This document shows, piece by piece, positions 4,498 to 19,400 of a stretch of 64,000 bases of DNA; within the stretch, counting starts at the first letter, position 1; every line of letters begins with the position of its first letter. The translations under genes and the position numbers were made by a program. A model generated the notes under the pieces. It was not told the origin of the DNA. It saw only the letters and a list, made by a program, of their open reading frames with translations, and did no database searches. The stretch comes from Acidobacteriota bacterium (GTDB lineage Bacteria; Acidobacteriota; Terriglobia; Acidiferrales; UBA7541): positions 1 through 64,000 of the forward strand of contig QHZD01000042.1 of NCBI GenBank assembly GCA_003225315.1, given 5' to 3'.

Positions 4498-5148
4498 TCA
4501 ACGAGCCGCGTCGGCGCGAGCACCCTCCGATGAAAGCTTCGCAACCACGACGGATCTTCGCCGTGAAAGCCAGCCCCCCACTCGCCACAAAAGCAGGATA
4601 GCGACAAGCGCACCGTAGAAGAGTGGCATGCGCACATCAGATTTGACCTTCCAGTAGTAGTGGATTACGCCCGCAACCGCCGCGAAATAAATGGCGCGAT
4701 GCAGCATTTGCCAGCGCTTCCCGCCGAGGCGGCGAATCCAGCCCGCCGTCGAAGTCATTGCCAGCGGAACCAAAAGCAGGAAACCGAGAAAGCCGACAGT
4801 GATGAATGGTCTCTTGGCAACGTCTTTCCATATGGCCGCAAGATCGAAAGATTGATCGGGGCCAAGATAGGTTAGGAAGTGGAGACACACGTAGAAAAAA
4901 GCAAAGAGGCCAAACATGCGGCGGAAGCGGATGAGATCAGGGAGGTTCAGAAGCTTGCGGAAGGGCGTTATGCATAAAGTGATGATAAGAAAACGTAATG
5001 TCCACCGGCCGGTGGTGAGCTGAATGAACTCGACGGGATTTGCACCGAGGCCATTATGAAGTGCGCGCCAAATCAGCGCATCAAGAGGAACCAGGCAAAG
5101 CAAGAAAACGGCGACCTTGGTCCATTTGCTGGTGAGAAGAGCACGCAT
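4498..5148 (-). CDS. msrQ: MsrQ, heme-binding membrane subunit of MsrPQ
   Basis: 216 aa, about six membrane segments, ferric-reductase-like (YedZ) family. Conserved His residues lie in the helices CLHFLTYLG and LHRAIYFAAVAGVIHYYWK and probably ligate heme. In characterised systems MsrQ passes electrons from the respiratory chain or flavin to MsrP in the periplasm. It follows msrP on the same strand with a 14-bp gap, the usual operon order. Family length is about 200 aa, so the gene is complete. Confidence 0.93.
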   Translation of the reverse strand: MRALLTSKWTKVAVFLLCLVPLDALIWRALHNGLGANPVEFIQLTTGRWTLRFLIITLCITPFRKLLNLPDLIRFRRMFGLFAFFYVCLHFLTYLGPDQSFDLAAIWKDVAKRPFITVGFLGFLLLVPLAMTSTAGWIRRLGGKRWQMLHRAIYFAAVAGVIHYYWKVKSDVRMPLFYGALVAILLLWRVGGWLSRRRSVVVAKLSSEGARADAAR

Positions 5149-5162
5149 TCGGGAATTCCCGG

Positions 5163-6125
5163 CTAGTAGTTCTTCTTCAGGTCCATGCCGTTATACATGC
5201 TGGCGACCTGATCGTCATAGCCGTTGAACATAAGGGTGGGGCGCTTGAAGATTTCGCCGAGACGACGTTCCTTAGCCTGACTCCAGCGCGGGTGATTCAC
5301 GTTGGGATTTACGTTCGAATAAAAGCCGTACCAATTGGGCACGGACAAATTCCAGGTGGTCGGCGGCATCTTCTGCTGGAACTTGATCTTGACGAGCGAC
5401 TTGATGCTCTTGAACCCATATTTCCAGGGGATGACCATCCGCACCGGCGCACCATCTTGATTTGGCAATGACTCTCCGTACATGCCGACGCAAAGGAGCG
5501 TGAGAGGATTCATCGCCTCGTCCAAACGAAGACCTTCGACATAGGGGAATTCGATGCCGGCCCAGCGTCCCAGAGGCATCTGGCCCGGATCATAGTAGCT
5601 TTGGAACGCCACGAATTGCGCTTTCGGTGTGGGTTCCACGAGCTTGATAAGACTGTTGAACGAAAAACCAATCCAGGGAACAACGATGGACCACGCTTCC
5701 ACGCAGCGGTGGCGGTAGATGCGCTCCTCAAGGGGGGCAACCTTGAGAATTTCGTCCATGGTGAACTTGCGGGGCTTCGCGACTTCGCCTTCGACGGAAA
5801 CGACCCAGTTGGAAGTGTTGAAGTTCTTTGCATTCTTGGCGGGATCGCTCTTGTCGGTACCGAATTCGTAAAAATTGTTGTAGTGCGTAACGTCCTCGTA
5901 GGAGTTCTGTTTTTCGGAAGTGCTGAAGTCGCTCTTGGCAAGGTTCGTGAATTTCGTCGCGGCAAATGCGACCTGCGGCGGTAAGGCCAAATCAAACAGG
6001 CTCTTTCCGGCGACTGCAGTTGCGCCCACGATGCCCATGACGCGCAGGAATCTACGGCGGTCCAAGTAGACGGACTTCGGCGTGACGTCGGCGTAAGTCA
6101 AGTCTGGGGCCTTGCGGATCAACAT
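5163..6125 (-). CDS. msrP: MsrP, periplasmic molybdopterin methionine sulfoxide reductase
   Basis: 320 aa. A Tat signal (RRRFLRVMG, residues 23-31) is followed by a sulfite-oxidase-fold molybdopterin domain. Cys141 in RHRCVEAW is the expected molybdenum ligand. MsrP repairs oxidised methionine in periplasmic proteins, taking electrons from MsrQ, whose gene follows directly. The start ATG is preceded by a clear ggaggaaag ribosome site. Length and motifs agree with a complete YedY/MsrP. Confidence 0.95.
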   Translation of the reverse strand: MLIRKAPDLTYADVTPKSVYLDRRRFLRVMGIVGATAVAGKSLFDLALPPQVAFAATKFTNLAKSDFSTSEKQNSYEDVTHYNNFYEFGTDKSDPAKNAKNFNTSNWVVSVEGEVAKPRKFTMDEILKVAPLEERIYRHRCVEAWSIVVPWIGFSFNSLIKLVEPTPKAQFVAFQSYYDPGQMPLGRWAGIEFPYVEGLRLDEAMNPLTLLCVGMYGESLPNQDGAPVRMVIPWKYGFKSIKSLVKIKFQQKMPPTTWNLSVPNWYGFYSNVNPNVNHPRWSQAKERRLGEIFKRPTLMFNGYDDQVASMYNGMDLKKNY

Positions 6126-6333
6126 CGCTTTCCTCCGGGTCTACTCGGGCATTTCGGCTTGGCTAGTATCTTATATCTATTTCGATGCTGGAACTTTGCC
6201 GGGGGCTTTCCCTTGTTTCTTGTTGAACGGGCTCGTTCTGGCCCCTTGCGAATGAGAGTTCTTTGCGGCGCAAAAGTTACAGCAGAGTTACCGACGCTGA
6301 CATGGGGATTTCCTTGGGGATTTGCTTCTCAGG

Positions 6334-7848
6334 CTAGCCGTGGAGCTTTTTGAGCACTTTTTGAGCGGCTTCGACACCGTAGTATTGAGCTTCTTCGAAA
6401 ATGGAGATGCCGCTTAGGTCGGAGTTGGCGAAGAGGATGCGGTCGTTCGGGTGCCTCAAACGGCGGCGCTCCTCGGAGAAAATCGAGCCAACGGCGGGGC
6501 GGATCATGGCGTGGCCCATGCGCATGACGTCAATGCGCGAGAGGCACTGGCGAATGTCGGAGTGGACGCGTTCGAGATCGTGAAGAATGGCCTCCTTCCA
6601 GTAGGCCCAATCCTTTTCGAGGAGAAGCTGGCGGTTCTGCGCAGGAGCGCCCTCGGCGAGGGCCCAGTAAAAGGTCCAGACGGTGCGGTCTACGTGTGTG
6701 CGCAGGCTCTGGTGCATCGCGTCGACGTAGCCGAGTGTGGACGAATCTAGGAAGACGGTGTCCCAGGAGGGTTCGGCGCCGCGCGAGTCCGGATAGCGAT
6801 CGAGCGTGAGGTTGGCGGTGAGCCAAGGGGAATAGACGAAATCATGAAGCCGGGGAAAATTGTCGAGGAGATAGGGGGCGAGGAACGTGGGCGCGGCGAA
6901 GATGACGAATTCGGACTGAAATTCGATATCGCCCACAAAGACGCTCGCGCCTCGGCGAGTCTGCGTGATGCGGTGGACCATCTGACCGGTGCGAATGTTT
7001 GCGCCGAGACGCTCGAGGAGGCGGCGAGTAATCCAGCCATTGCCTTCGGGCCAGGTGAGCGGGCCTTTTTCCTCGGGCTCGCGGGAAGAAAAATAATGGA
7101 TGCCAGCCCAGGCGGAAGTGTCGCTCGCGAGCGCGCCGTAATCGTCGCGGCAAGCGTAGTTCATGTACCAATGAAGAAGGCGGGAGTCGAAGCCTTGCTG
7201 ACGAAGCCAGTCTGAAAAGGAAATGCGATCGAGATGCTTAGATTTTGAAGAGAGGCCGAGTTCGAGTGGAACAGTGAAGGCTCCACTTTTGCGAAAGTCC
7301 GCGAAGACATTCTCGAGGCGTTGAAACTGCTCGCGGTCTTTCGAAGTGAGACCAACAGCGGGCTCGATGCCTTCCTGCCAACGGCCGTAGAGGAAGAGGC
7401 GCTCCTGCGGAGAAAAAGCGAGATAACGCTCTTCCCATTGGCCATTTTTCAATACGCCGAGATCTTCGAAGAGTTCGCGAACGCACACGGCTTTCGGCCC
7501 TGGGACCGGCACGTAATGCGCAGCCCAGGGATACGCGGTGAATTCGTTCTCGCCCCAGCGGGCGTTGCCGCCGGCTTGTTGATTCATTTCGAGAAGGACA
7601 AAGTCGGTGAAGCCGCGCTTGCGAAGGCGCCAAGCGGCGCTGAGACCGGCGATTCCCCCGCCGACGATGACGACGGGGACTTTTTCGATGCGCTTTGCAC
7701 CGGGGAATGCGGTGCGATCGCGCAAGAGATGGCCCATCTGAAAGGAATCGTTGACAAAAGAGCCTGCGATCTTTTTTTCACTTTTTAGGGAAAGGCCGAC
7801 GAGCGCCGCACTGCCAAGACCGAGAAACTTGCGGCGGCCCAGCTTCAA
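6334..7848 (-). CDS. Tat-exported FAD-dependent amine-oxidase-like oxidoreductase
   Basis: 504 aa, last gene of the polyamine/SPFH operon. The N-terminus carries a Tat signal (GRRKFLGLGSAALVG). A dinucleotide-binding motif GGGIAG at residues 63-68 is followed by LLEMNQQAGGNARWG, typical of flavin amine oxidases/NAD(P)-binding-8 proteins. Its start overlaps the stop of the upstream aminopropyltransferase gene by four bases (ATGA-type), implying translational coupling. Oxidation of a polyamine or other amine outside the cytoplasm is an inference from fold and context; a carotenoid-desaturase-like or protoporphyrinogen-oxidase-like activity is not excluded. Confidence 0.8.
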   Translation of the reverse strand: MKLGRRKFLGLGSAALVGLSLKSEKKIAGSFVNDSFQMGHLLRDRTAFPGAKRIEKVPVVIVGGGIAGLSAAWRLRKRGFTDFVLLEMNQQAGGNARWGENEFTAYPWAAHYVPVPGPKAVCVRELFEDLGVLKNGQWEERYLAFSPQERLFLYGRWQEGIEPAVGLTSKDREQFQRLENVFADFRKSGAFTVPLELGLSSKSKHLDRISFSDWLRQQGFDSRLLHWYMNYACRDDYGALASDTSAWAGIHYFSSREPEEKGPLTWPEGNGWITRRLLERLGANIRTGQMVHRITQTRRGASVFVGDIEFQSEFVIFAAPTFLAPYLLDNFPRLHDFVYSPWLTANLTLDRYPDSRGAEPSWDTVFLDSSTLGYVDAMHQSLRTHVDRTVWTFYWALAEGAPAQNRQLLLEKDWAYWKEAILHDLERVHSDIRQCLSRIDVMRMGHAMIRPAVGSIFSEERRRLRHPNDRILFANSDLSGISIFEEAQYYGVEAAQKVLKKLHG

Positions 7849-9341
7849 TGACTGATGTCCTTCCAGTCGTTCTCGTAGGTGCGAACGAGGATCTGGCTGT
7901 TGAGCTGGTTAGCGGGCATGGAGAGCGGCGCCATGTCCGGCGGAAACTGAAAGAGTGCTGGGAGGTCGTCTACGCTGACGAAACGCAATCCCGTGGGAAG
8001 CGATTTGGGCGGCAGGTATTCGTGAGTGCCGGCCAGGACGAAGCCCCATTCGCCGAAGGAGGGAACGTAAACGTGATAAGGAAAAGTTTGCAGGCCGGAT
8101 TGTTTCAATGTTTGCGCAATGCACCAGAAGGAATCGCGGGCAAACATGGGCGATGTGCTTTGCACCACCATAAAGCCCTGCGCGCTAAGGTGGCGCGCGA
8201 CGGCGCGGTAGAACGCCGTGGTGTAAAGCTTGCCGAGCGAATAATTCGTGGGATCGGGGAAATCGATGACGATGAAATCGAAATTGTCCGCGTTCGAAGC
8301 GACCCACGGAAACGCATCGGCGTTGATGACGTGTACGCGCGGAGAGAGCAGCGAGCTGGCATTGAGCCTGGTCAGCATGGGGTTCGAGGAGAAAATCCTG
8401 GTCATTTCGGGGTCGAGGTCGACGAGCGTGATGCTTTCGACCAGCGGATACTTCAGGATTTCGCGGACGGCAAGGCCATCGCCTCCGCCGAGAATCAGCA
8501 CTCGGCGCGGAGCGGGAATGGCCGCCAGGCCCGGATGGACAAGCGCTTCATGGTAACGGTATTCGTCGCGGGAGCTGAACTGCAGGTGGCTGTTGAGAAA
8601 AAGACGCAGGTCGTCCTTGAAGCGCGTGAGGACAAGATGCTGATAACGAGTGTCACGGGCAAAAATAATTTCGTCGGCGTAGATATTGTCCTCGGCGGTG
8701 GCGGTGATGCGCTTCGCCTCTGCGAACCCCGTACCTAGTCCAAACAAGACTAGAAGACAGGCAACGCGCAAGCCGCGAGTGGCGGAAAGTTGGTTCGCGA
8801 AAAGGAACGTGCTCCAGAGCGCAACGGCGGCATTAATCAAACCGAACAACATCGCAGAGCGCACAAGACCGAGACGTGGCACCAGCAGAATGGGAAAGAG
8901 GAGCGAAGCTCCAAGGGCACCGAGATAATCGAAGGTAAGAACGTGCGCAATCACGTCGCGAAACTGGTAGCGGTCCTTGACAATGCGCATCAGCAACGGG
9001 ATTTCCAGCCCGACCAGAACGCCCATCACAACGACCAGCGTGTACAGAATCAATTCGAATCCCTGGGTAAAGGCAAACGCGAGCATCAGCAGCGCGGAGG
9101 AAAATCCGCCGACAATTCCAAGGAGTAGCTCGATCCACACAAAGCGATAGGCGAGGCCGCGATTGACATAGCGGGAAAGTGCGCTGCCGATGCCCATCGC
9201 GAACAGATACGTGCCGATGATCGTGGAGAATTGAAAAACGCTATCGCCAACGAGATAGCTGGCGAGCGTGCCGGCGACAAGCTCATAAATGAGGCCGCAA
9301 GCCGCGACGAGCAGCACGGAAATGAACACGAGGAGGCCCAT
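7845..9341 (-). CDS. Membrane-fused spermidine synthase-like aminopropyltransferase
   Basis: 498 aa. The N-terminal ~205 residues form about seven membrane helices; the C-terminal part is a spermidine-synthase domain. Seen motifs: YHEAL (263-267), GGGDG (285-289, S-adenosyl ligand binding) and DFPDP (360-364), which keeps both Asp of the usual DSSDP active site. It should transfer aminopropyl groups from decarboxylated S-adenosylmethionine, the product of the AdoMet decarboxylase encoded five genes upstream in this operon. The polyamine acceptor cannot be read from sequence. The membrane fusion suggests the product is made at the inner membrane. Confidence 0.88.
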   Translation of the reverse strand: MGLLVFISVLLVAACGLIYELVAGTLASYLVGDSVFQFSTIIGTYLFAMGIGSALSRYVNRGLAYRFVWIELLLGIVGGFSSALLMLAFAFTQGFELILYTLVVVMGVLVGLEIPLLMRIVKDRYQFRDVIAHVLTFDYLGALGASLLFPILLVPRLGLVRSAMLFGLINAAVALWSTFLFANQLSATRGLRVACLLVLFGLGTGFAEAKRITATAEDNIYADEIIFARDTRYQHLVLTRFKDDLRLFLNSHLQFSSRDEYRYHEALVHPGLAAIPAPRRVLILGGGDGLAVREILKYPLVESITLVDLDPEMTRIFSSNPMLTRLNASSLLSPRVHVINADAFPWVASNADNFDFIVIDFPDPTNYSLGKLYTTAFYRAVARHLSAQGFMVVQSTSPMFARDSFWCIAQTLKQSGLQTFPYHVYVPSFGEWGFVLAGTHEYLPPKSLPTGLRFVSVDDLPALFQFPPDMAPLSMPANQLNSQILVRTYENDWKDISH

Positions 9342-9344
9342 AGG

Positions 9345-9557
9345 CTAGTGGATCGCGGCAGCAATGATGATGCAGAGGCCGAGAGACATGGCACCGACAA
9401 GAATGGCGAGCGCCATGTTGTGCTCCTGCACGATTTCCTTCCAGAGATGGTACGGCGTGAGCTTGTCCATCACCATGAAGGCGATCACAAAGATAAAAAT
9501 TCCGACAAACGCGAACACCAGGGCAGCGACGATGTTGCCGAGCGGAACAAGGTTCAT
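9345..9557 (-). CDS. DUF350 (YjfL-like) small membrane protein
   Basis: 70 aa. Start taken at ATG 9557 because aggaggcaaataag lies directly upstream; the longer frame to 9719 runs antiparallel through the preceding gene. Two hydrophobic helices (IVAALVFAFVGIFIFVIAF and MALAILVGAMSLGLCIIIAAAI) are separated by a charged loop containing DKLTPYHLWKEI, typical of DUF350. In E. coli the DUF350 protein YjfL is encoded next to a PspA-like protein. Here it sits 3 bp before the aminopropyltransferase gene. Single DUF350 units usually occur as two repeats, so this is the short form. Molecular function is unknown. Confidence 0.85.
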   Translation of the reverse strand: MNLVPLGNIVAALVFAFVGIFIFVIAFMVMDKLTPYHLWKEIVQEHNMALAILVGAMSLGLCIIIAAAIH

Positions 9558-9558
9558 C

Positions 9559-9744
9559 TTATTTGCCTCCTGTGTAGTGGTGATAGCCGCTGTAAACCGA
9601 GCGGTACGAACCGGGATTATCGCGGACGGATTTCGGAACGTTCTTGAGCTGATTGATGGTGTCGAGGCTCCAGCCGCGGTATTGACCGAAGGCCGCGGTG
9701 CCGAGAACCAGGAATCCATAAAGAAGATAGAATTTTCGGAACAT
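9559..9744 (-). CDS. Small secreted or membrane-anchored protein
   Basis: 61 aa. The N-terminus is a signal peptide or anchor (MFRKFYLLYGFLVLGTAAFGQ); the remainder is polar with several Tyr, His and Gly (SYRSVYSGYHHYTGGK). The start overlaps the DUF4178 stop (TAATG) and the stop is one base before the DUF350 start, so the spacing itself argues for a real gene. No family recognised. Confidence 0.65.
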   Translation of the reverse strand: MFRKFYLLYGFLVLGTAAFGQYRGWSLDTINQLKNVPKSVRDNPGSYRSVYSGYHHYTGGK

Positions 9745-11069
9745 TATTCGTCCTCTCCCGAACTGCTGGACAATTGCATGGGCGGATGATCGCTTTCGGA
9801 CCAGCGGGACCGCTCAAAGGTATGAGCGCGAAAGGAAATGATGAGTACGGGCGCGAGTAACGCGAGAAAAGCGATGCCGTAGATTCCGAAGACGGGCACG
9901 TCATGGGTCACATCGACGGTGTACGGAATAACGGGAAGGGAAGGATCCGCCTCCGGCTCAATGCGAAGATAGTAGTGGCCGGGTGGGACACTTGGAATCA
10001 CGACTTCGTCGTTCTGCTTGCCTTCAGTCCACGAGCCATCACTGTCGTAGCCGTAGAAGTAGCTCACTTCGCGGCCAAAGTCCCAGGCTTGCCCGGTGTC
10101 CTGATTGATGAGCGCGTAGTTCAAATAAATCCAGTGATTACTGACAGGGGCGTAGGTTTTCACTTGCACCGTCGAAGTGCGTCCAGTGAGTTCGAAAACA
10201 TCCGTAACGAAAGAAGCCTCGGCTTTTGAGTCAGCGCGGCTGTACCGATAGGTTTGCCAAAACACCGGCTCTTTTTTTGCTCGCATATCGAAACCGGCTA
10301 TGAGCGCGAGAAGTAGCACGGCAAAGGCGGCGAAGGCAACCCACATTCCGGCGAGGTTAGTCGTGACGGGCGAAGGCTGATTTTCGTAAACGCCCATCGC
10401 TTCGGGCGGAGCGCCGTGGAGTTTAAAGGCCTCCCAGATTTCGCGACCGTACATGTACTCGCCAATGGACCAGGTAACTTCCTTGTCTAGCTTCTCGCTG
10501 GAGAGGACGCGCGGGGGATGCACATAGTCCGTGACGGCAGCCTTTTCGCCGACACGAACCTGCCATGGAAATTCACCGAGAACAAAATCAGTGCTGGCAT
10601 CGCACGTCTGGAAATGCTTGTAGATTTCGCCAAGGTAGTTGGCAGAGGTTCCCTCGCTCATCGGAAGCATTTTGCAGATGCTGATGTCGTTCCAATGGCC
10701 GTTGTATTCACTGAGGTAGCGAATGCCTTTGTAAGGATTGAAAAGGACATATTCGTGCCAGCAATAAGTGATTCCGTCGACCTGCGTGCTGCGCCGTTGG
10801 AACCCGATGACTTCGTAGTCGGTACCGCGGAGCTTGCCGCGCGTGCCAAGAGGAATGAGGGGCCTGACATCGCTTGTTTTGATTTCGAATTGCTGGAGGA
10901 TGGCCAGATTGGGATCTTTGGCGTCGAGGATGCAATGACAGCTCGCGCATACGACGGTTTCGGCCTGGCCGAACGAACGCAAAACAATGGCTGCGCCGCA
11001 CTTCGGACAATTCAGCGCCTTCGCTTGTGCCTTGGGAGGCCCGGAAAGTGGCGGAGTGCTCGCGCTCAT
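9744..11069 (-). CDS. DUF4178 protein with zinc ribbon and membrane helices
   Basis: 441 aa. The N-terminal zinc ribbon uses Cys21, Cys24, Cys41 and Cys44. A DUF4178 beta-domain follows (LGTRGKLRGTDYEVIGFQRR ... YCWHEYVLFNPYKG). Two hydrophobic segments appear later, AAFAVLLLALIAGF and YGIAFLALLAPVLIISF, with a beta-rich domain between them that is probably extracytoplasmic. The start overlaps the stop of the second DUF4178 gene (TAATG). DUF4178 proteins recur next to polyamine and SPFH genes, but I know of no established activity. Confidence 0.88.
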   Translation of the reverse strand: MSASTPPLSGPPKAQAKALNCPKCGAAIVLRSFGQAETVVCASCHCILDAKDPNLAILQQFEIKTSDVRPLIPLGTRGKLRGTDYEVIGFQRRSTQVDGITYCWHEYVLFNPYKGIRYLSEYNGHWNDISICKMLPMSEGTSANYLGEIYKHFQTCDASTDFVLGEFPWQVRVGEKAAVTDYVHPPRVLSSEKLDKEVTWSIGEYMYGREIWEAFKLHGAPPEAMGVYENQPSPVTTNLAGMWVAFAAFAVLLLALIAGFDMRAKKEPVFWQTYRYSRADSKAEASFVTDVFELTGRTSTVQVKTYAPVSNHWIYLNYALINQDTGQAWDFGREVSYFYGYDSDGSWTEGKQNDEVVIPSVPPGHYYLRIEPEADPSLPVIPYTVDVTHDVPVFGIYGIAFLALLAPVLIISFRAHTFERSRWSESDHPPMQLSSSSGEDE

Positions 11070-11701
11070 TACCAGCCCTCGAAACTGCGAAGATTCTTCA
11101 GTTTGAGATCCTCGAACTGCACGAATTCACCGAGGTACAGAGCCGGTTCGGGATCGCTGTAATCAAGAGTGGCGAATTTCGTGGACTCAGTGCGCAAGTC
11201 GACGAAGGTGACGTCCGTCTTGTCCCAATACTGAAATGGCAATTCGCCCTCGACGCCGCGGTAATGCGCAGGAGTGATGACGGTCACAGTATAGGGTTGG
11301 TTGTTCCAAGTGAATTGCTGGCCGACATGAACCTGGGTTGGGGCGGGAAGATTCTGCGCCGTCGAAGATAAAGAGAGCGCGTATTCACTCTGAGCGTCAG
11401 ACAGCCAGGCGCTTGCGCCGTCGTTCATCATGACGTGCCACTCATTCCAGCCGCCCTGATCGTACTCGTAAAGGATGCGGCCGACCACCACGAACGCCTT
11501 GTTGCCGTACTTGCCTTCGGTATTGATCTGAATGGGTGAGCTGTCCGGCGGAAGGTCAGCGACCTGGCCGACTTTTTTCAGGTCCACATTAGTGCGGACA
11601 AGGATGCTCTTACAAAAACCGCAAACGGTCTGGACACTGCTGGACCAGCGAAAAACAATCTTGGCGCCGCAGTTCGGACAGTTGGCAACAGGCTGGGTCA
11701 T
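11069..11701 (-). CDS. Soluble DUF4178 protein with zinc ribbon
   Basis: 210 aa. Zinc ribbon Cys8, Cys11, Cys27, Cys30; then a DUF4178 core with INTEGKYGNKAFVVVGRILYEY and GWNEWHVMMNDGASAWLSDAQ. There is no membrane helix, unlike its larger neighbour. A second half-repeat (VGQQFTWNNQPYTVTVI) resembles the first DUF4178 strand set, so it may hold two related units. It is translationally coupled to the next DUF4178 gene. Function unknown. Confidence 0.87.
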   Translation of the reverse strand: MTQPVANCPNCGAKIVFRWSSSVQTVCGFCKSILVRTNVDLKKVGQVADLPPDSSPIQINTEGKYGNKAFVVVGRILYEYDQGGWNEWHVMMNDGASAWLSDAQSEYALSLSSTAQNLPAPTQVHVGQQFTWNNQPYTVTVITPAHYRGVEGELPFQYWDKTDVTFVDLRTESTKFATLDYSDPEPALYLGEFVQFEDLKLKNLRSFEGW

Positions 11702-11740
11702 CGGGAGCGACTCGTTAGGCTTGCGCCATGAGGTCCTTCC

Positions 11741-12112
11741 TCAGTCACTGACGGCCTGCTTCCATTGGGATTCGTAGGGCCTCTGTAGCCGCCGGACTGA
11801 GACGGAATCTGCCTCAAAGAGTTGCCGCAGAATCGTCTCGAAATCCCATTCAGCGCGCGGAAGGCAACAGAAGAGATTGAGGCAGAGCGAGCCGTGCTCC
11901 GGAAAGGTGTGACACGCGAGATGCGACTCCGCGAGAAGGCAAAGCCCAGTGATGCCCCCGGTGCCGGGAAACTGATGCCAATGCGTTTGGCCGACGGGCC
12001 GGAGCTTCATCTCGCGAATAATGCCGCTGAATAAATTCTGCAAGACAGCAACGTCACGCAGCGGCTGGGAAGAGCATCCGAAAGCTTCGACCACCCACTC
12101 GATTCCGCTCAT
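11741..12112 (-). CDS. speH: S-adenosylmethionine decarboxylase proenzyme
   Basis: 123 aa, the size of the bacterial class 1b enzyme. The motif ESHLACHTFPE gives Ser63, the self-cleavage site that becomes the pyruvoyl group, and His68, needed for processing; Cys83 is in the expected place for the catalytic acid. The residue numbers coincide with those I recall for the Thermotoga enzyme. It makes decarboxylated AdoMet, the aminopropyl donor for the spermidine synthase-like protein of the same operon. It lies 18 bp after the SPFH gene. Confidence 0.93.
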   Translation of the reverse strand: MSGIEWVVEAFGCSSQPLRDVAVLQNLFSGIIREMKLRPVGQTHWHQFPGTGGITGLCLLAESHLACHTFPEHGSLCLNLFCCLPRAEWDFETILRQLFEADSVSVRRLQRPYESQWKQAVSD

Positions 12113-12130
12113 GGCAGACGAGACGCCACG

Positions 12131-13129
12131 CTACGTCTGAGGCTTTCCGCATTCCGGACAGAATTTAGCGCTACGCGGAATGGGCTTGCCACATTCGCCG
12201 CAGAATTTCGTTTCGGCAGCAGGGGCTCCAGCCGGCCCAGGGGCTGTCCCACTGGAAGGCGCCGAAGTCGATTTCTTGACAGCGTCCATCATGGCCTGGC
12301 CCATGGCCACGCCGGCACCGAGACCCGCGCCCATTCCTACCGCGCCTCCGCCCTCATTTCCGGCGGCGATGGGGATGGACTGCGCCACTTGATATTGGGT
12401 AAATTTGCCCATGTCGCCGAGCACGTTCATACTGATGCGCTGATCGAGCACTTTCTGCAGCTCATCCGGCAACGAAAGGTTCTCGACCACAAAGCTATTC
12501 AGCGTGAGCCCATAGTCCGTGAACGACGGTTTGAGGGTTTCGCTGATCTTCTCGGCGAGTGCGCCCTGGTTCGCGGCCATATCCAAGAACGGCACCTGGC
12601 TGGCGGCGAAAGCATCCGTCATTTTAGCAACGATGGTGTTCCGTAACTGGCCTTCGAGATCGGGAACGCGGTAAGTATCGCGCGTGCCGCTGATCTTGCT
12701 GTAGAACGATTTGGCATCGCTCAAGTGATACGAATAAATGCCGAAGCCGCGAAGACGAATTGCGCCGAATTCCTTGTCGCGAATGGAAATGGGATTCTGC
12801 GTTCCCCAATGCTGATCGGTCTGAATGCGCGTTGAGAAAAAATAGACATCTGATTTAAACGGCGATTTGAATGCTTTGTCCCAGTTCTTCAAGTAAGTCA
12901 GGATGGGCAGCGTCTGCGTATTCAGCGTGTAAAGTCCGGGGCCAAAGGTGTCCGCAACTTTCCCTTCATTCACAAAAACCGCGGCCTGCGAATCGCGAAC
13001 GGTCAGCTTGCCGCCATTCTGGATCTCGCGATCCTGCATGGGATAGCGGTAGGCCAGGATGCCTTCCTCTGGCTCAACCCATTCGATGACATCAATAAAC
13101 TGCTTGGTGATGAAGTCGCGAAGGCTCAT
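12131..13129 (-). CDS. SPFH-domain protein with C-terminal zinc ribbon (YdjI-like)
   Basis: 332 aa, first gene of the operon. Residues about 1-240 fit an SPFH/band-7 domain of the YdjI (virion-core-protein-like) type (EPEEGILAYRYPMQDREI ... SFVVENLSLPDELQKVL). A Gly/Ala/Met-rich linker follows (about 255-285), then a double CxxC zinc ribbon (CGECGKPIPRSAKFCPECGK). In Bacillus subtilis YdjI helps recruit the PspA-like YdjF to the membrane. No pspA homologue lies within the window. Ribosome site gagggg lies upstream of ATG; a promoter is at 13184-13212. Confidence 0.9.
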   Translation of the reverse strand: MSLRDFITKQFIDVIEWVEPEEGILAYRYPMQDREIQNGGKLTVRDSQAAVFVNEGKVADTFGPGLYTLNTQTLPILTYLKNWDKAFKSPFKSDVYFFSTRIQTDQHWGTQNPISIRDKEFGAIRLRGFGIYSYHLSDAKSFYSKISGTRDTYRVPDLEGQLRNTIVAKMTDAFAASQVPFLDMAANQGALAEKISETLKPSFTDYGLTLNSFVVENLSLPDELQKVLDQRISMNVLGDMGKFTQYQVAQSIPIAAGNEGGGAVGMGAGLGAGVAMGQAMMDAVKKSTSAPSSGTAPGPAGAPAAETKFCGECGKPIPRSAKFCPECGKPQT

Positions 13130-13183
13130 CGGAGGCCCCTCTTCCGGCGCGCTCGTGAACAGGAATAGCGGCCAGTGAAAGCG

Positions 13184-13212
13184 ATGCTACGGTGCAGTTT
13201 GCAGTGTGTCAA
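13184..13212 (-). promoter_or_regulatory. Sigma-70-type promoter of the SPFH/polyamine operon
   Basis: Read on the minus strand: TTGACA (13207-13212), a 17-bp spacer and TAGCAT (13184-13189). The -35 is a perfect match to consensus, the -10 matches four of six, and the spacing is optimal. It lies 55 bp upstream of the first start codon. Confidence 0.6.
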
Positions 13213-13383: not shown

Positions 13384-16338
13384 TTATCGCTGCTCTGACT
13401 CGCCACGATGAAAGCTTTCGGGCGGACCGAGGTAACTGGGTTTTACACCGCCCAGATTCACGACAAGCTTTTGCAGCACAACGCCGGGATCCACCATCCA
13501 GAACTTCAGCGTGTGATAGCCCGATCTTGCCAATAAGTGTGTGGACCGCACTTTGCGGACGCTGTCCTTCACCGAGGTTCCCCAGTCGTCCACCGAGTTC
13601 TGCGCGAGGGCATCAATGACCTGAGGCGCTTCGTCGTCGAATGAAACGGCATATCGCAGGCCGCGACCGGGCACGAAATTCAACGTGGGGGAGAGGATGG
13701 CCTCCACCTCCACAGTGCGCGGGTCGAAGAGATACAATTTGTATTCGAGGCGCGGAGAATCTCGCGGGGGCGTGACGCTTTCCGCCGTCACGGGAAACAC
13801 GGACATGGACGACAGCGTCCGTCCGAGGTCGTCAATCTTTTCCCATCGCGCGTAGGGCCCGTCGACTTTCTTAGTGTAGTGCACCGCTTCCATCGAAACG
13901 TACCCATCGCTCTCCACAAATCCATCCAGCGATTCTCGTGTCAGGTCTTGCGGACGAAAAGCCTTCACGTTCACGACAAACTCTTGTGTGCTGCTCCTCC
14001 TGATTTTCAAGGAGCCGTTTGTTAAACCCAAAGGGGCCCTTTTCCAGTCCACGCTAACCCACACGCGCCGTTCCTTCTCAATGGTTCCTTGCGACTCGCT
14101 CAGCACGATCCAAGGGGCGCTCGAGGAGGCGGAAAACACGAACGGCGCTCTACCTCGATTGAAAACGTCGATGTAGTGGCGTTGTTGGTTAAAGGCGTCA
14201 AACGGAGGGAGAGTTGGTTCGGCCGGAGACCCGGGCCAAGCATTCGCTGAGCCTTCAACTGCCACGCCGAGCTGCGCCGGGGCAGGAATCTCAATCTCGG
14301 TGACCTTGGGCATAGCGTTCACCGGCGGTTGGTTCCAAAATGTGTAGCCGATGTGGGTTTGATCCATCATATGGTCCCACTTGCCGTGAGCCAGCACGTG
14401 GTTGTAATGGGCTGAGAGATCCGCGTCGGCCTGAAACAAGGCGCGCGCCGCAGCGGCTGATTCGTTCGCGCTGGCACGACCTTGGCTGGCGTAGAGCTGG
14501 TTTCTGGCTGCAGTGATGTACAGCTCCGTCACGATTGCGGACGCTTTCGTGGGATAGAGCACAAGTTCGAAGAAAGCGTCGCGTTGGTTCTCCGGCAACT
14601 TGCTGTAAATCTTTTCCGCTTTCGCCACCGCGGCCTGGAAATCAGCGAACACCGTGTCCGCTTCCCGATAATCGATGAGGCTGAACGTGCCGGGCTCAAG
14701 CAACTCGGGTTTGCCTCGGCCGTTGTATTTCGTGTACTTCGAAAGTACGGCCGCAATGTCCGGCGCGAACTGTGTCCCAAATTGCCGTGCCACCCAGAGT
14801 CTTGTGAATTCACCGATTCTTTCTTTGGGCCAGTTGTCCGGCTTCCACGCCATGTTCAGAAAAAAATCGATGGGCAATTCCATGGGTTTCAAGTCACCTA
14901 CGTTGACAATCCAAATGCGATCGGCGCCGTAGTGATACGCGAGATTCATCTGCTCCCAAACCTTGGCAATCGGAATAGTGTTCAGCCACTTGTAGGAACG
15001 CGGATCTCCGACGTAATCGAAGTGATAGTAGATTCCAGCGCCGCCGCTACGTTTTCGTTCCTCCGGTGTCGGCAACCTGCGGATATTTCCCCAGTTATCG
15101 TCGCACCAGAGCAGAGTCACGTCGTCGGGAACACGCATACCCTTCTCGTAGTATTCCTGCACTTCCTTATAGAGGGCCCAGTCCTGGGGCACTTTGGATA
15201 AGTCGGGGTTTACGCGGTCCGCGATTATCTTGCGCTGATCCGCCACGATCTTTTCCAGCAAGGCGATATTAGCGCTCTCGGACATGGGGAGGTCTCCGTC
15301 TCCGCGCATGCCGAGCGTGATGATGCTCTCGTACTCCTTGTTGCGCTCGATCCCTTGATCCCAGAACTCCCTCAGGACTTCGGCATTTTTCGAATAATCC
15401 CACGGACCCTTTCCATGCCGCTTCCACTCCTGTTGTGCGCGCAGCATCGGTTCGTGATGAGATGTGCCCATTACAATGCCGTATTCGTCTGCGAGCGGGG
15501 CATTCAGGGGGTCATCCTCGTTGAAGGCGTTGTTCCACATCGCGGGCCAGAGGTAGTTGGCCTTCAATCGCAGCAGCAGTTCAAAAACCTTGGTATAGAA
15601 CTCATGATTGTAGTTGCCGTATTTTTCTTTCACCCATCCGGTGAGGGATGGCGCTTCATCGTTCAGGAAAATTCCGCGGTACTTAACTGCAGGCGGTCCC
15701 TGCACATAGGTGCCAGGCTTTACAAAGAGTTCATCGTGATGCTGGAAGGGAACGTCAGCCCACCAGTACCACGGCGAAACCCCAATCTGGTCGGAAAGAT
15801 CATAGATGCCGTAGATTGTTCCTCGTTTATCGCTTCCCGCGATAATCAACCCGCTGGCCACGCCTGGCAATGGCTTCGACACGACGCGAATGAGAAACGA
15901 TTCCCATTTGCCGGCAATGGGCGTCACATCGATTTTGCGATCGCGGATCAGTTCATCGATGATTTTGCTTTTTCCAACAGTACCAACGACGATCACGTTT
16001 GATCCCAGGTTGTTTTCATCGTGCGCGATCGCTGGGGTGTGGTTCGTAACGCGTTCGATGTCCGCTTGCAAATCGTTGACCGCGCGAACCACGCCTGGAA
16101 AATCCAATGAGTCCACATAGAGAGTTGCGGCGGCGCTTCGCGTGACGATGCTGAAATCACCAGGGTGATAAGCTGAGTCTACATAGCGATCCTCACCGAT
16201 GGTGATAGCGTGAAGAAGAGAAGAGCCCAGCAAACATAGAACGATTACCAGCGATGTCTTACCAGGATTGAATATCAGCGACGGCTGGCCACGACCAGTG
16301 TCCGGCGAAAAAGACACGCGAGAGAAACCGAGGGTCAT
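13384..16338 (-). CDS. GH115 alpha-glucuronidase
   Basis: 984 aa with a signal segment (TSLVIVLCLLGSSLLHA) near residues 28-45. Central GH115 features: YRGIFLNDEAPSLTGW, LRLKANYLWPAMWNNAFNEDDP and TSHHEPMLRAQQEWKRHG. The C-terminal ~250 residues form beta-rich domains as in other family members. GH115 enzymes remove 4-O-methyl-glucuronic acid side chains from glucuronoxylan. Just upstream on the same strand are a TonB receptor, a ROK regulator and a CE15 glucuronoyl esterase, which makes glucuronoxylan the likely substrate. The length is normal for the family. Confidence 0.92.
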   Translation of the reverse strand: MTLGFSRVSFSPDTGRGQPSLIFNPGKTSLVIVLCLLGSSLLHAITIGEDRYVDSAYHPGDFSIVTRSAAATLYVDSLDFPGVVRAVNDLQADIERVTNHTPAIAHDENNLGSNVIVVGTVGKSKIIDELIRDRKIDVTPIAGKWESFLIRVVSKPLPGVASGLIIAGSDKRGTIYGIYDLSDQIGVSPWYWWADVPFQHHDELFVKPGTYVQGPPAVKYRGIFLNDEAPSLTGWVKEKYGNYNHEFYTKVFELLLRLKANYLWPAMWNNAFNEDDPLNAPLADEYGIVMGTSHHEPMLRAQQEWKRHGKGPWDYSKNAEVLREFWDQGIERNKEYESIITLGMRGDGDLPMSESANIALLEKIVADQRKIIADRVNPDLSKVPQDWALYKEVQEYYEKGMRVPDDVTLLWCDDNWGNIRRLPTPEERKRSGGAGIYYHFDYVGDPRSYKWLNTIPIAKVWEQMNLAYHYGADRIWIVNVGDLKPMELPIDFFLNMAWKPDNWPKERIGEFTRLWVARQFGTQFAPDIAAVLSKYTKYNGRGKPELLEPGTFSLIDYREADTVFADFQAAVAKAEKIYSKLPENQRDAFFELVLYPTKASAIVTELYITAARNQLYASQGRASANESAAAARALFQADADLSAHYNHVLAHGKWDHMMDQTHIGYTFWNQPPVNAMPKVTEIEIPAPAQLGVAVEGSANAWPGSPAEPTLPPFDAFNQQRHYIDVFNRGRAPFVFSASSSAPWIVLSESQGTIEKERRVWVSVDWKRAPLGLTNGSLKIRRSSTQEFVVNVKAFRPQDLTRESLDGFVESDGYVSMEAVHYTKKVDGPYARWEKIDDLGRTLSSMSVFPVTAESVTPPRDSPRLEYKLYLFDPRTVEVEAILSPTLNFVPGRGLRYAVSFDDEAPQVIDALAQNSVDDWGTSVKDSVRKVRSTHLLARSGYHTLKFWMVDPGVVLQKLVVNLGGVKPSYLGPPESFHRGESEQR

Positions 16339-16468: not shown

Positions 16469-19400
16469 TCAGAAGATCACCTTCCCGGAAAACCAGAGAG
16501 TGCGCTGGCCGGTGAGGTTGCCGGCTTCGCTGGAAAACTGCGGTCCGCTCGCCGTGGAAGTAATGACTCCGAAATTCGAGCTGTTGGAGGTCGAAAATGT
16601 TGTGTTGGGGTTGCCGAAATTTGGCGTATTGGTCACGGCAAAGGCGTCCACGCGGAATTGAAACTTCACCCGCTCTGTAATCGGGAAGTTCCGCAAAAGT
16701 CCGGTATCTAGGTCAAAGAAGCCAGGCCCGCGAAGGATGTTGCGTCCAGCAGTGCCATAGCGGGGTGTCCCCGTTACCTGAGCAAACGAGATCACCGAAA
16801 AATACTGGCAAGTTGGGTCGTTGAGGGCGCAGTTCACGAATTTACCCGTCGTTGGATCCTGGCGCTGGACGTTTCCTGTGATAACGATTGGGCCGATCAA
16901 ATCCGGCGTAAGAGTCGCTCCTCCCGCGTGAGTATTGTCCGTACCCCCGGTGACCGTCAGAGGAACACCGCTGTAACGGCTCATAATCCAGTTCAATTGC
17001 CAACCGCCCGCCAAAATGTTTGCGATGCCATGTTGCGCCCAGCGCCTGCTGCGGCCGAAAGGCAGCTCGTAAACACCGAAAGCCTGGAAATTGTGGGGAC
17101 GGTCAAAACCAGCAAGGGCTTTGTTGTCTCCCCAGTTGGCGGGAAAGGGATGGAAGACCGCTCCCTCGTTTTCACCGTAGTCGATGGCCTTAGAGAACGT
17201 GTAAGCAAAACCGATCACCGATCCGCCGCTGAACCGTCGCGTTAGTTTGGATTGCAGGGAATCGTAGTAGGTGATCTTGAAGGGCGCCACGGCATTGATA
17301 TCGCCCCAGCAGTTCGCACTCGGGCACGCGGCCGGATTGGCATTGAGCAGGCGCCTTTGGTTCGCGGTAGCCGCCGCTCCCGGTGAGCCGGCGTTGATGT
17401 TGAGCCCCAAGGGGATGCGAATACCACGCGTTCCGACGTAGCCAGCCTCGGCCACCCATCCAAGGAACTCATTTTGCACGATCAGGTTGTAAGACTCCGC
17501 ATAGCCGCGGTGAAAGGGATTGGCCACAGTAGTCGTCCCCACAAAGTTGGGGAGGCGGATCACGCCGTTGCCTAGCCCAGTGAAAGGTACAAGAGTAATC
17601 CCCGTTACAAGGCCCGGGTAAGGAGCGAGATTTGCGTTGGTGCCTGTAAGGCTTGCGGATGGCGCGAAAGTACTGCCGAAGAGCTGGCTTGCCTGGTAAT
17701 CCATATTGGTGATGTTGGGGTAGGTGTCCCGCAGAGCCCGGAAGTTGTTCGGGTCTACGCTAATTCCGTATCCCGCGCGGATCACCGTCTTGCTCCTGAG
17801 CCGGTAAGCGATTCCAAAGCGCGGAGCAAAGATTCCGTGGCCGACGTCGACGCCATCGTCCTCAGGAACTGATCCAAGCCCTCCGATAAAAACGTTGCCG
17901 GTGGCAGGGTCGAAAAATTTCGCGCCGGTATGATCGCTGCTTGCGAACGGATAGTATTCCCATCGCACGCCATAGGTGAAAGTCAGCTTTTGAGTCACTT
18001 GCCAGCGGTCCCGCGCATACCAGGCCCAGGTGGTGAAGCGCAGCGCGTTGGGGATGATGTTCTGGACGACCTTGCCGTCGCGCTGCGGGAGACCAAGCAA
18101 GAATTGGGCAAAACTGTTGTAGGCGTTGCCTGTCCCCCCTGCGTACGGGGCGCCACCCAGGGAGGTGACACTTCCGTCGAACCCAAAGGTGCCTCGCGGT
18201 GTGCCGAAAGTTCCTCCCTGAGGTTGGAAGTGGTTGATCCCACTGTGGTAGTATTCAAGACCGAAGCGCAGATCGTGCCGTCCTTTTATCCAGCCGAGGT
18301 TGGTGTTAGCTACATATTGATTGTCCCGGAAGGTGAACGGATTGCCGGTATTCGCATTTCCGAGATTCGCCCAACCTGTGATCTGAAAGGCAGGAATGCC
18401 ACCGTAGATGGGGTCGGACCCATTCGTACCCGGAATGTGCAAGGTGTCTAGGCCGAAGTTCGTTCCAATATCTACGTTTTGAGCATTGAGGCGTAGCCGC
18501 GTGTATCCGGCGTTCAAATCCCACAGCATGTTCGGGGAAATCTGGTGGCTGCCGCCCAGCGCCACGCTTTGGACCCGGCTCGATGCGTTGCCGTTCTGTC
18601 CACCGCCAGTGGCGTCGCCCCCTGCCGATCCCAAAGCGGGCGGGTCGAAAATGAGGGAGGGGGAAATGCTGTACCGGGCGAACACCATGGACTTAGTGTC
18701 GGGCACATAATTAACCTTCGCGTCGATTCTGCTTAGATTGTACTGAGGCGCTCCAACGGGAATGAAGTTGTTCGTAATATTGGTTGGGTTGTTGGGATCG
18801 CCCACATTGAGTGCTGGAATCAGGGAAGCCATTTTCATTGCTGCGGGATCGATGCGGTTCGTGGGAATGATGTTTCCCGGAAAAGCTGTGCGTCCAGTAC
18901 CGTCCGCGTTTCCGGTGTTGGGATCATAGACGCATCCCACAGCTGGCGTGGAATTGCAATTTGAAAACGGAACTGTACCTCCGCCTGATGTAGGAACGAG
19001 TGTGCCGACGGCTGGTAAGAGAGTGGAGAAGTCGCCGTTCCGGATGGAATTGGGCGCGACGTTCTTTGCCGCTCCACCCGCCGTCCGGATTTTCGTGCCC
19101 TCATAAGCCCCAAAGAAAAACAGTTTGTCCTTCTTGATGGGACCGCCAAAGGTTCCGCCATATTGGTTGAAAATATTCTTGGGTTTTACGGGCTGCACAA
19201 CGGCCGGTCTGAAGTAGTTGCGCGTGCGAAGCTTATTGTCGGTATGGTACTCGAAGGCCGTACCGTGAAATTGATTGGTGCCTGATTTGACGATTACGTT
19301 CGCCGCGAGGCCGCCGGCCATGCCCTGCTCGGCGTCAAAGTTGTTGGTTACTACGTTCACGGATTCGATGGCGTCCGCGGAGGGGATGTAGGCAACATTC

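Follow-up and report, generated by a model that had tools for sequence, protein, structure and literature searches.

The 64,000-nucleotide window analysed here, positions 1 to 64,000 of contig QHZD01000042.1 from an Acidobacteriota bacterium (GCA_003225315.1), carries an operon built around a membrane-bound relative of spermidine synthase, membrane SpeE. In the ORF listing of the window, eight co-directional open reading frames (ORFs) run along the minus strand from 13129 to 6334. They encode an SPFH protein, an S-adenosylmethionine (AdoMet) decarboxylase, two DUF4178 proteins, a small protein, a DUF350 protein, membrane SpeE and an amine-oxidase-like flavoenzyme with a twin-arginine translocation (Tat) signal (Table 1). 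In transcription order, the distances between neighbouring genes measure 18, 39, –1, –1, 1, 3 and –4 bp. The promoter scan over 551 bp returned two promoter-like sites against 0.4 expected, one upstream of the SPFH gene and a second on the plus strand. The tight spacing and the one good promoter recorded in the first-pass annotation of this DNA were thus both recovered. That annotation had also named dispersal of the genes in related genomes as grounds for abandoning its reading; a neighbourhood survey found them kept together as a unit. Because the gene order is found again in other phyla, the operon is genuine and more than a chance arrangement.

Table 1. Features of the operon and of related loci. 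Positions are those of the window unless a locus is given; the Pfam scores quoted for the operon proteins all exceed the curated cut-offs of their families.
Feature	Position	Strand	Evidence
Promoter-like TTGACA-17-TAGCAT, upstream of SPFH gene	13184..13212	-	consensus scan, 10/12
SPFH (Band_7_1) with C-terminal zinc ribbon, 332 aa	12131..13129	-	PF13421 257.4 bits; PF13240 28.3
AdoMet decarboxylase class 1b (SpeD/SpeH), 123 aa	11741..12112	-	PF02675 83.1 bits (cut-off 25); motifs AESH, CHTFPE
DUF4178 protein, 210 aa, zinc-ribbon-like CxxC pairs N-terminally	11069..11701	-	PF13785 56.2 bits
Large DUF4178 protein, 441 aa	9744..11069	-	PF13785 72.9 bits; AlphaFold pLDDT (predicted local distance difference test) 91.7; structure comparison
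Small protein, 61 aa	9559..9744	-	alignment of 38 matches
DUF350 (YjfL-type) protein, 70 aa	9345..9557	-	PF03994 55.6 bits; alignment
Membrane SpeE, 498 aa	7845..9341	-	NF002956/PRK03612 674.6 bits (cut-off 472); Spermine_synth 125.5; AlphaFold and VIA-align
Tat-signal flavin adenine dinucleotide (FAD) amine-oxidase-like enzyme, 504 aa, TTG start	6334..7848	-	PF01593 (FAD amine oxidase superfamily) 48.1 bits (cut-off 19.8); RRKFLG; alignment A6
Separate polyamine cassette ORFs	L180:4524-5081, 7349-8422, 8583-9476; L186:1329-2402		host contig 1
His-rich family members	L069:6529-7578, L173:12136-13215, 18 others		alignment A2

All eight families are present in 11 of 11 loci from the host's own genus. 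Across the phylum, 45 loci were collected; two (L054 and L057) were dropped, their SpeE having been lost in gene calling though seen there otherwise. Among the 43 with a called SpeE, one of which (L073) is a partial and more distant match, DUF350 occurs at 41, the large DUF4178 protein and the flavoenzyme at 37 each, the small protein at 36 and AdoMet decarboxylase at 28. A second survey took the best 80 loci in named genomes among the matches listed and left out 36 that lacked flanks or a called SpeE, so that its counts refer to the other 44. Here DUF4178 was found at 37, an undercount since a fused DUF4178 ORF at L116 was labelled 'small', with the flavoenzyme at 37, DUF350 at 34, AdoMet decarboxylase at 32 and the small protein at 18. 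By title or tree group, the named loci among the matches listed include Acidobacteriota, Gemmatimonadota, Pseudomonadota, Bacteroidota and Verrucomicrobiota, and Myxococcota, Spirochaetota, Nitrospinota, Bdellovibrionota and Elusimicrobiota are also represented. The nearest named relatives among these matches are Acidobacteria metagenome-assembled genomes (SpeE identity 91–93%). At three Pseudomonadota loci (L140, L145 and L146), SpeE stands without any partner beside it.

On the level of whole genomes, the coupling is strict. Membrane SpeE, defined by matches of at least 325 bits, is present in 47 of 247 genomes sampled from the phylum, spanning 21 genera and 15 families; within the host's order it is confined to the host's own genus (12 of 95 genomes, or 12 of 36 in the genus). 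DUF4178 (PF13785) likewise occurs in 47 of the 247, and the two genome sets are identical. The association with AdoMet decarboxylase that the first-pass annotation had drawn on holds in 46 of the 47 genomes, compared with 37 of the remaining 200; in family f24 the decarboxylase lies outside the eight fetched neighbourhoods, yet is encoded elsewhere in the genome (unlinked). A strong flavoenzyme match (E < 1e-180) was obtained for 43 genomes, every one of which belongs to the 47. Moreover, the pairwise distances of SpeE, the flavoenzyme and the large DUF4178 protein are correlated across 72 loci with r values of 0.89–0.93 (permuted maximum 0.14), and those involving DUF350 with values of 0.74–0.77. 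L100 and L101, which duplicate L078 and L076, were excluded from the correlations and from the SpeE tree. This tree represents nine phyla and places the Acidobacteriota rows at several separate positions, a scatter that would fit either transfer or old paralogy. One genome, G077, has two different membrane SpeE genes that face each other (L051:11494–12960, plus strand, and 17689–18999, minus strand), the second adjoining a DUF350 gene interrupted by the contig end.

The three enzymes of the operon retain the hallmarks of their families. The catalytic domain of SpeE, which begins at about residue 220, is of the aminopropyltransferase type and can be aligned to aminopropyltransferases of solved structure. 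GGGDG (285–289), D360 and D363 (the paired Asp of DxPDP), Q254 and YHE (263–265) are, among others, invariant in 40 SpeE sequences. In the AdoMet decarboxylase, the ESH, CHTFPE and CC positions of class 1b are seen in the alignment, and T. maritima S63, H68 and C83 were placed on the protein by our own mapping; with TIGR03330 (SAM_DCase_Bsu equivalog) it scored 64.1, under the cut-off of 75.65. The flavoenzyme has GRRKFLG at its N-terminus, on which the Tat prediction is based. A twin-arginine pattern recurs in 89 of 96 homologous N-termini, a set with duplicates and some overlong starts, and in 88 of 94 when identical ends are removed and a slightly different pattern is used. A strict lipobox is present in 31 of the 88 twin-arginine N-termini, none of them from the host's genus. 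In line with the exported flavin enzyme of the first-pass annotation, Tat-dependent export is predicted. H111-Y112, E140, D235-D236 and D363 are among the residues invariant in 25 aligned flavoenzymes. Profile links to MAO, SpdH and putrescine oxidase are weak, and among the 25 families shown no equivalog cut-off was reached. Second-tier relatives (E 1.4e-92 to 8.6e-46) occur in seven genomes without membrane SpeE, and at the five such loci read (L188, L189, L190, L191 and L193) no other operon family was found beside the gene. One of the seven genomes, G144, encodes SpeD and SpeE as a soluble pair on a different contig (L192), its soluble SpeE falling outside the cut-off of the 247-genome SpeE listing.

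The predicted fold of the SpeE membrane half was modelled (AlphaFold, residues 1–215, pLDDT 92.5), with helices at residues 2–31, 34–58, 63–91, 95–121, 127–180 (read as two) and 188–207. Comparison of residues ~1–186 by VIA-align gave Z scores of 17.5–19.8 against 50 entries, mostly with their C-terminal halves; judging by their names, we take these to be transporters of the major facilitator superfamily (MFS). The best match, FLVCR2, reached Z 19.8 with a root mean square deviation of 2.2 over 177 aligned residues. These matches lead us to model the membrane region as a single MFS half followed by a seventh helix (188–207). Two MFS halves (12 helices) were not found within one SpeE chain. The membrane location given in the first-pass annotation is supported.

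MFS halves begin on the cytosolic side, and several features of SpeE point to a seventh helix that would carry the catalytic domain to the other side. In 40 SpeE sequences, loops 2–3, 4–5 and 6–7 hold on average 2.75, 3.33 and 2.58 Lys or Arg (K/R) residues, loops 1–2, 3–4 and 5–6 only 0.05, 0.85 and 1.32. Helix 7 is hydrophobic (best 19-mer mean 2.0; at least 1.6 in 37 of 40) and is followed by a stretch with a net charge of –1.48. In 113 short forms, the K/R excess of the helix that leads into the domain lies on the N-terminal side in 86 and on the C-terminal side in 3, and hydropathy counts seven helices in 89. Long fusions, which are open frames of at least ~530 aa with a weaker match, provide a second view. 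In the 25 that were read, seven helices precede the domain in 19 and 13 in three. In 20 of the 25, helices also follow the domain; the first of them has its K/R excess facing away from the domain in 15 and adjoining it in two. In relatives with two halves, the domain is flanked by helices both before and after it, giving a pattern of 6+1, domain, 1+6, as expected for normally oriented MFS halves with the domain outside. We conclude with moderate confidence that the SpeE catalytic domain is periplasmic, on the same side as the predicted Tat flavoenzyme. The first-pass annotation had placed synthesis of the product at the inner membrane; the membrane stands, and the MFS-half match, the loop charges and the flanks shift the face to a probably periplasmic one. 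Our literature searches, whose coverage did not extend to Li et al. 2019, returned no proposal of a periplasmic SpeE domain. Long MFS-spermidine synthase relatives were noted at L194, L195, L198 and L200–L219; in most of them some seven helices precede a catalytic-like domain and six or seven more follow it.

Our preferred interpretation, which we regard as evenly poised between right and wrong, is that the operon is an envelope aminopropyl-transfer device, in which an envelope acceptor is aminopropylated and then oxidised outside. Judging by family and motifs, cytosolic SpeD would decarboxylate AdoMet. SpeE, with its half-MFS and additional helix, would hold the aminopropyltransferase domain in the periplasm and might, perhaps in homodimeric form, move either decarboxylated AdoMet (dcAdoMet) or the acceptor through the membrane. 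The aminopropyl group would go to an envelope acceptor, probably other than free putrescine, and the flavoenzyme, once exported, would oxidise the aminopropylated product outside. DUF4178, DUF350 and the small protein, joined by SPFH in this lineage, may form a holding or sensing complex in the membrane.

A number of observations weigh against this proposal. Foldseek with the SpeE membrane half found nothing below E 0.001. Loop 5–6, expected outside, is net positive (+1.27 in the 40 SpeE), and loop 4–5 is net positive in just 65%. Hydropathy gives six helices in 23 of the 113 short forms and eight in one, and an even number precedes the domain in three of the 25 long relatives (12 in one, six in two), where the helix before the domain also lacks a flank bias (9 vs 8). 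To our knowledge, export of dcAdoMet is without precedent. In the genome survey, one genome with SpeE and DUF4178 but short contigs (G016) gave no AdoMet decarboxylase match, four of the 47 lack a strong flavoenzyme match, and weaker flavoenzyme relatives (E 1.4e-92 to 2.2e-21) occur in ten genomes outside the 47. Genomes of one phylum share ancestry and are not independent trials. Finally, an AdoMet decarboxylase match is absent from 17 of the 26 genomes that have the long form only, so that the chemistry of the long relatives may differ.

Several of these points would suit the same module with its aminopropyltransferase domain in the cytosol and helix 7 not spanning the membrane. A cytosolic or inner-leaflet acceptor would then be aminopropylated, the MFS-like half would export or flip the product, and the Tat flavoenzyme would act on it after export. 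dcAdoMet is known to be cytosolic, and both the neutral flank test in the long relatives and the short forms with six helices only would agree with such an arrangement. It is at odds with the hydrophobicity of helix 7 and the negative stretch behind it, with the helix parity, and with the extra post-domain helix of the two-half relatives. We consider it a tentative alternative, less probable than a periplasmic domain.

A further question is whether the operon simply supplies polyamines. The host genome has a single PF01564 gene and a single AdoMet decarboxylase. On host contig 1, a separate cassette encodes a pyruvoyl arginine decarboxylase, a deoxyhypusine-synthase-like protein that scores under all equivalog cut-offs shown, an AguB-like protein that scores under its own cut-off, and a probable AguA, an ORF read by eye as agmatine deiminase. 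An earlier argument of ours, that the host has no putrescine source and that the acceptor is hence not putrescine, was abandoned because of the pyruvoyl arginine decarboxylase, AguB-like and probable AguA genes. In the host, the PF02784 search recovered LysA only and the PF01276 search nothing. Judged from these genes, the host could make putrescine, and perhaps a triamine, independently of the operon. The operon is therefore unlikely to be the main polyamine route, contrary to the first-pass suggestion that it makes a polyamine.

These data bear on a more conventional explanation, in which SpeE would be an ordinary spermidine or aminopropylagmatine synthase tethered to the membrane. It would convert putrescine or agmatine into a soluble polyamine and export this through its MFS part, while the flavoenzyme would act in the periplasm as an oxidase or dehydrogenase of polyamines, as SpdH does. 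Reportedly, the MFS-spermidine synthase fusions of Li et al. 2019 gave no spermidine and no complementation, which we count against it. The separate host route, which could give putrescine and triamine, likewise speaks against it, and it leaves the strict coupling to DUF4178 unexplained. We regard it as unlikely, even though the aminopropyltransferase catalytic residues are kept and substrates may be at hand: pyruvoyl arginine decarboxylase is present in the host and six others of 25 operon genomes, and PF02784 matches in open frames of at least 600 aa, candidate SpeA proteins, occur in many other genomes. The flavoenzyme profile, moreover, matches P. aeruginosa SpdH weakly (1.8e-10), signal region included, and PMC11107197 reports a strong Tat signal for SpdH and suggests a periplasmic location. 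The two enzymes share the FAD amine-oxidase superfamily and the Tat signal; the operon flavoenzyme differs in its own set of invariant residues and in lying under every equivalog cut-off among the 25 families shown.

The large DUF4178 protein is modelled with a CxxC zinc ribbon, a DUF4178 beta domain, a helix at 236–263 and a second at 395–423, both read as transmembrane, and between them a beta-sandwich (~265–392) predicted to be periplasmic. Structure comparisons are dominated by this beta-sandwich (264–392), which matches many beta-sandwich domains, p24 GOLD domains included, at Z 7.8–10.6, a result that indicates no function. The 61-aa protein gave no match in a Pfam scan. The protein, whose one hydrophobic segment lies at the N-terminus and whose tail ends in GGK, is conserved across many of the relatives among the 38 aligned. 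We considered it as a general substrate and rejected this, because it was undetected in any Bacteroidota or Pseudomonadota locus, where a short, variable protein can be missed. The SPFH protein combines Band_7_1 with a C-terminal zinc ribbon, as in YdjL-type SPFH proteins. It is present in all 11 own-genus loci, in 13 of the 43 Acidobacteriota loci and in 27 of the 44 well-flanked named loci from the best 80 listed; the two Acidobacteriota loci that have it outside the genus are L044 and L055, in the latter at a distance and on the opposite strand. SPFH, absent from many loci in both surveys, is hence an optional part, and we reject the view that the SPFH scaffold of the first-pass annotation is essential.

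An additional partner, not found in the host, is a His-rich family of ~350 aa, hydrophobic by eye, with invariant H62, H117, H247 and H331 and an HFxRQQxG motif in 20 aligned members. It is encoded after or near the flavoenzyme at 9 and 12 loci in the two surveys, and the members searched had no Pfam or NCBIfam match over cut-off. Strong matches (E < 1e-120) occur in 19 of the 247 genomes, all inside the 47, and six more genomes have weak ones only.

Downstream of the flavoenzyme gene, starting after 208 bp, lie genes for MsrP and MsrQ (5163–6125 and 4498–5148, minus strand), absent from the first-pass annotation. In the scan, the region between (6125–6334) contained neither a promoter-like site nor, on the minus strand, a terminator-like one. 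MsrP cluster c1 adjoins the flavoenzyme at 8 of 11 own-genus loci. Periplasmic methionine sulfoxide repair by MsrP/MsrQ would fit H2O2 production by an exported oxidase.

As the first-pass annotation held, parts of this neighbourhood had been noted before. PMC11237479 (Ravi et al. 2024) already describes the family by comparative genomics, with operons of 7TM-spermidine synthase, DUF350 and DUF4178 accompanied by PspA/CesT, and mentions variants that also contain band-7, AdoMet decarboxylase and polyamine oxidase. When comparing our operon with group 2 of that work, the 7TM-spermidine synthase, DUF350 and DUF4178 are all shared. The eight genes differ in having band-7 in place of a PspA or CesT/Tir domain, and this band-7 protein carries a zinc ribbon, whereas that of PMC11237479 occurs with 2TM-SHOCT. 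No CesT/Tir-PspA dyad was found among the eight genes or MsrP/MsrQ, a search that did not extend to the upstream neighbour at 13384–16338. E. coli yjfIJKL-yjfC (group 3 in the same paper) also combines DUF350 with polyamine-type chemistry next to a PspA homologue; it has an ATP-grasp ligase (YjfC, a peptide spermidine ligase) and no membrane aminopropyltransferase. The PspA/CesT or band-7 genes that the same paper describes alongside related operons could speak for a membrane-stress sensor, in which SpeE and the flavoenzyme serve as binding or sensory domains without metabolic flux and SPFH or PspA-type proteins act as effectors. Invariant catalytic residues in the 40 SpeE, an AdoMet decarboxylase kept in 46 of 47 genomes and the optional nature of SPFH itself make this highly improbable.

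Li et al. 2019 (Biochem J 476:2579) are reported to have linked MFS-spermidine synthase fusions to AdoMet decarboxylase and DUF350 and to have proposed a non-putrescine acceptor. Membrane SpeE and its linkage to AdoMet decarboxylase and DUF350 would be common to that study and the present one; the half-MFS, the predicted periplasmic domain, the exported oxidase, the co-occurrence with DUF4178 and the separate host cassette are additions here. What we regard as new is the side of the membrane predicted for the catalytic domain, the reading of the membrane part as half an MFS transporter, the strictness of the co-occurrence and the additional His-rich partner. The section of PMC11237479 consulted discusses neither a Tat signal on the oxidase nor the sidedness of the catalytic domain, nor does it treat the His-rich partner.

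Extending the argument, SpeE and the wider MFS-spermidine synthase fusions might form an extracytoplasmic group transferase, a possibility we put forward with considerable doubt. A half-MFS completed by dimerisation would export dcAdoMet, envelope lipids, peptidoglycan or proteins would be aminopropylated, and aldehydes made by the flavoenzyme could cross-link the envelope. This last step, by analogy with lysyl oxidase acting on collagen, is the boldest. It would be the first case known to us of AdoMet-derived transfer chemistry outside the inner membrane.

For the family, the preferred reading of an envelope aminopropyl-transfer device has three consequences. The NCBIfam label for this type of SpeE is polyamine aminopropyltransferase; if the domain is periplasmic, the label hides an envelope-modification system. 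A periplasmic domain would also explain why AdoMet decarboxylase is retained beside a separate polyamine route. Lastly, through the model a neighbourhood that we had known merely as a gene list gains a location, a donor and a sequence of steps that can be tested.

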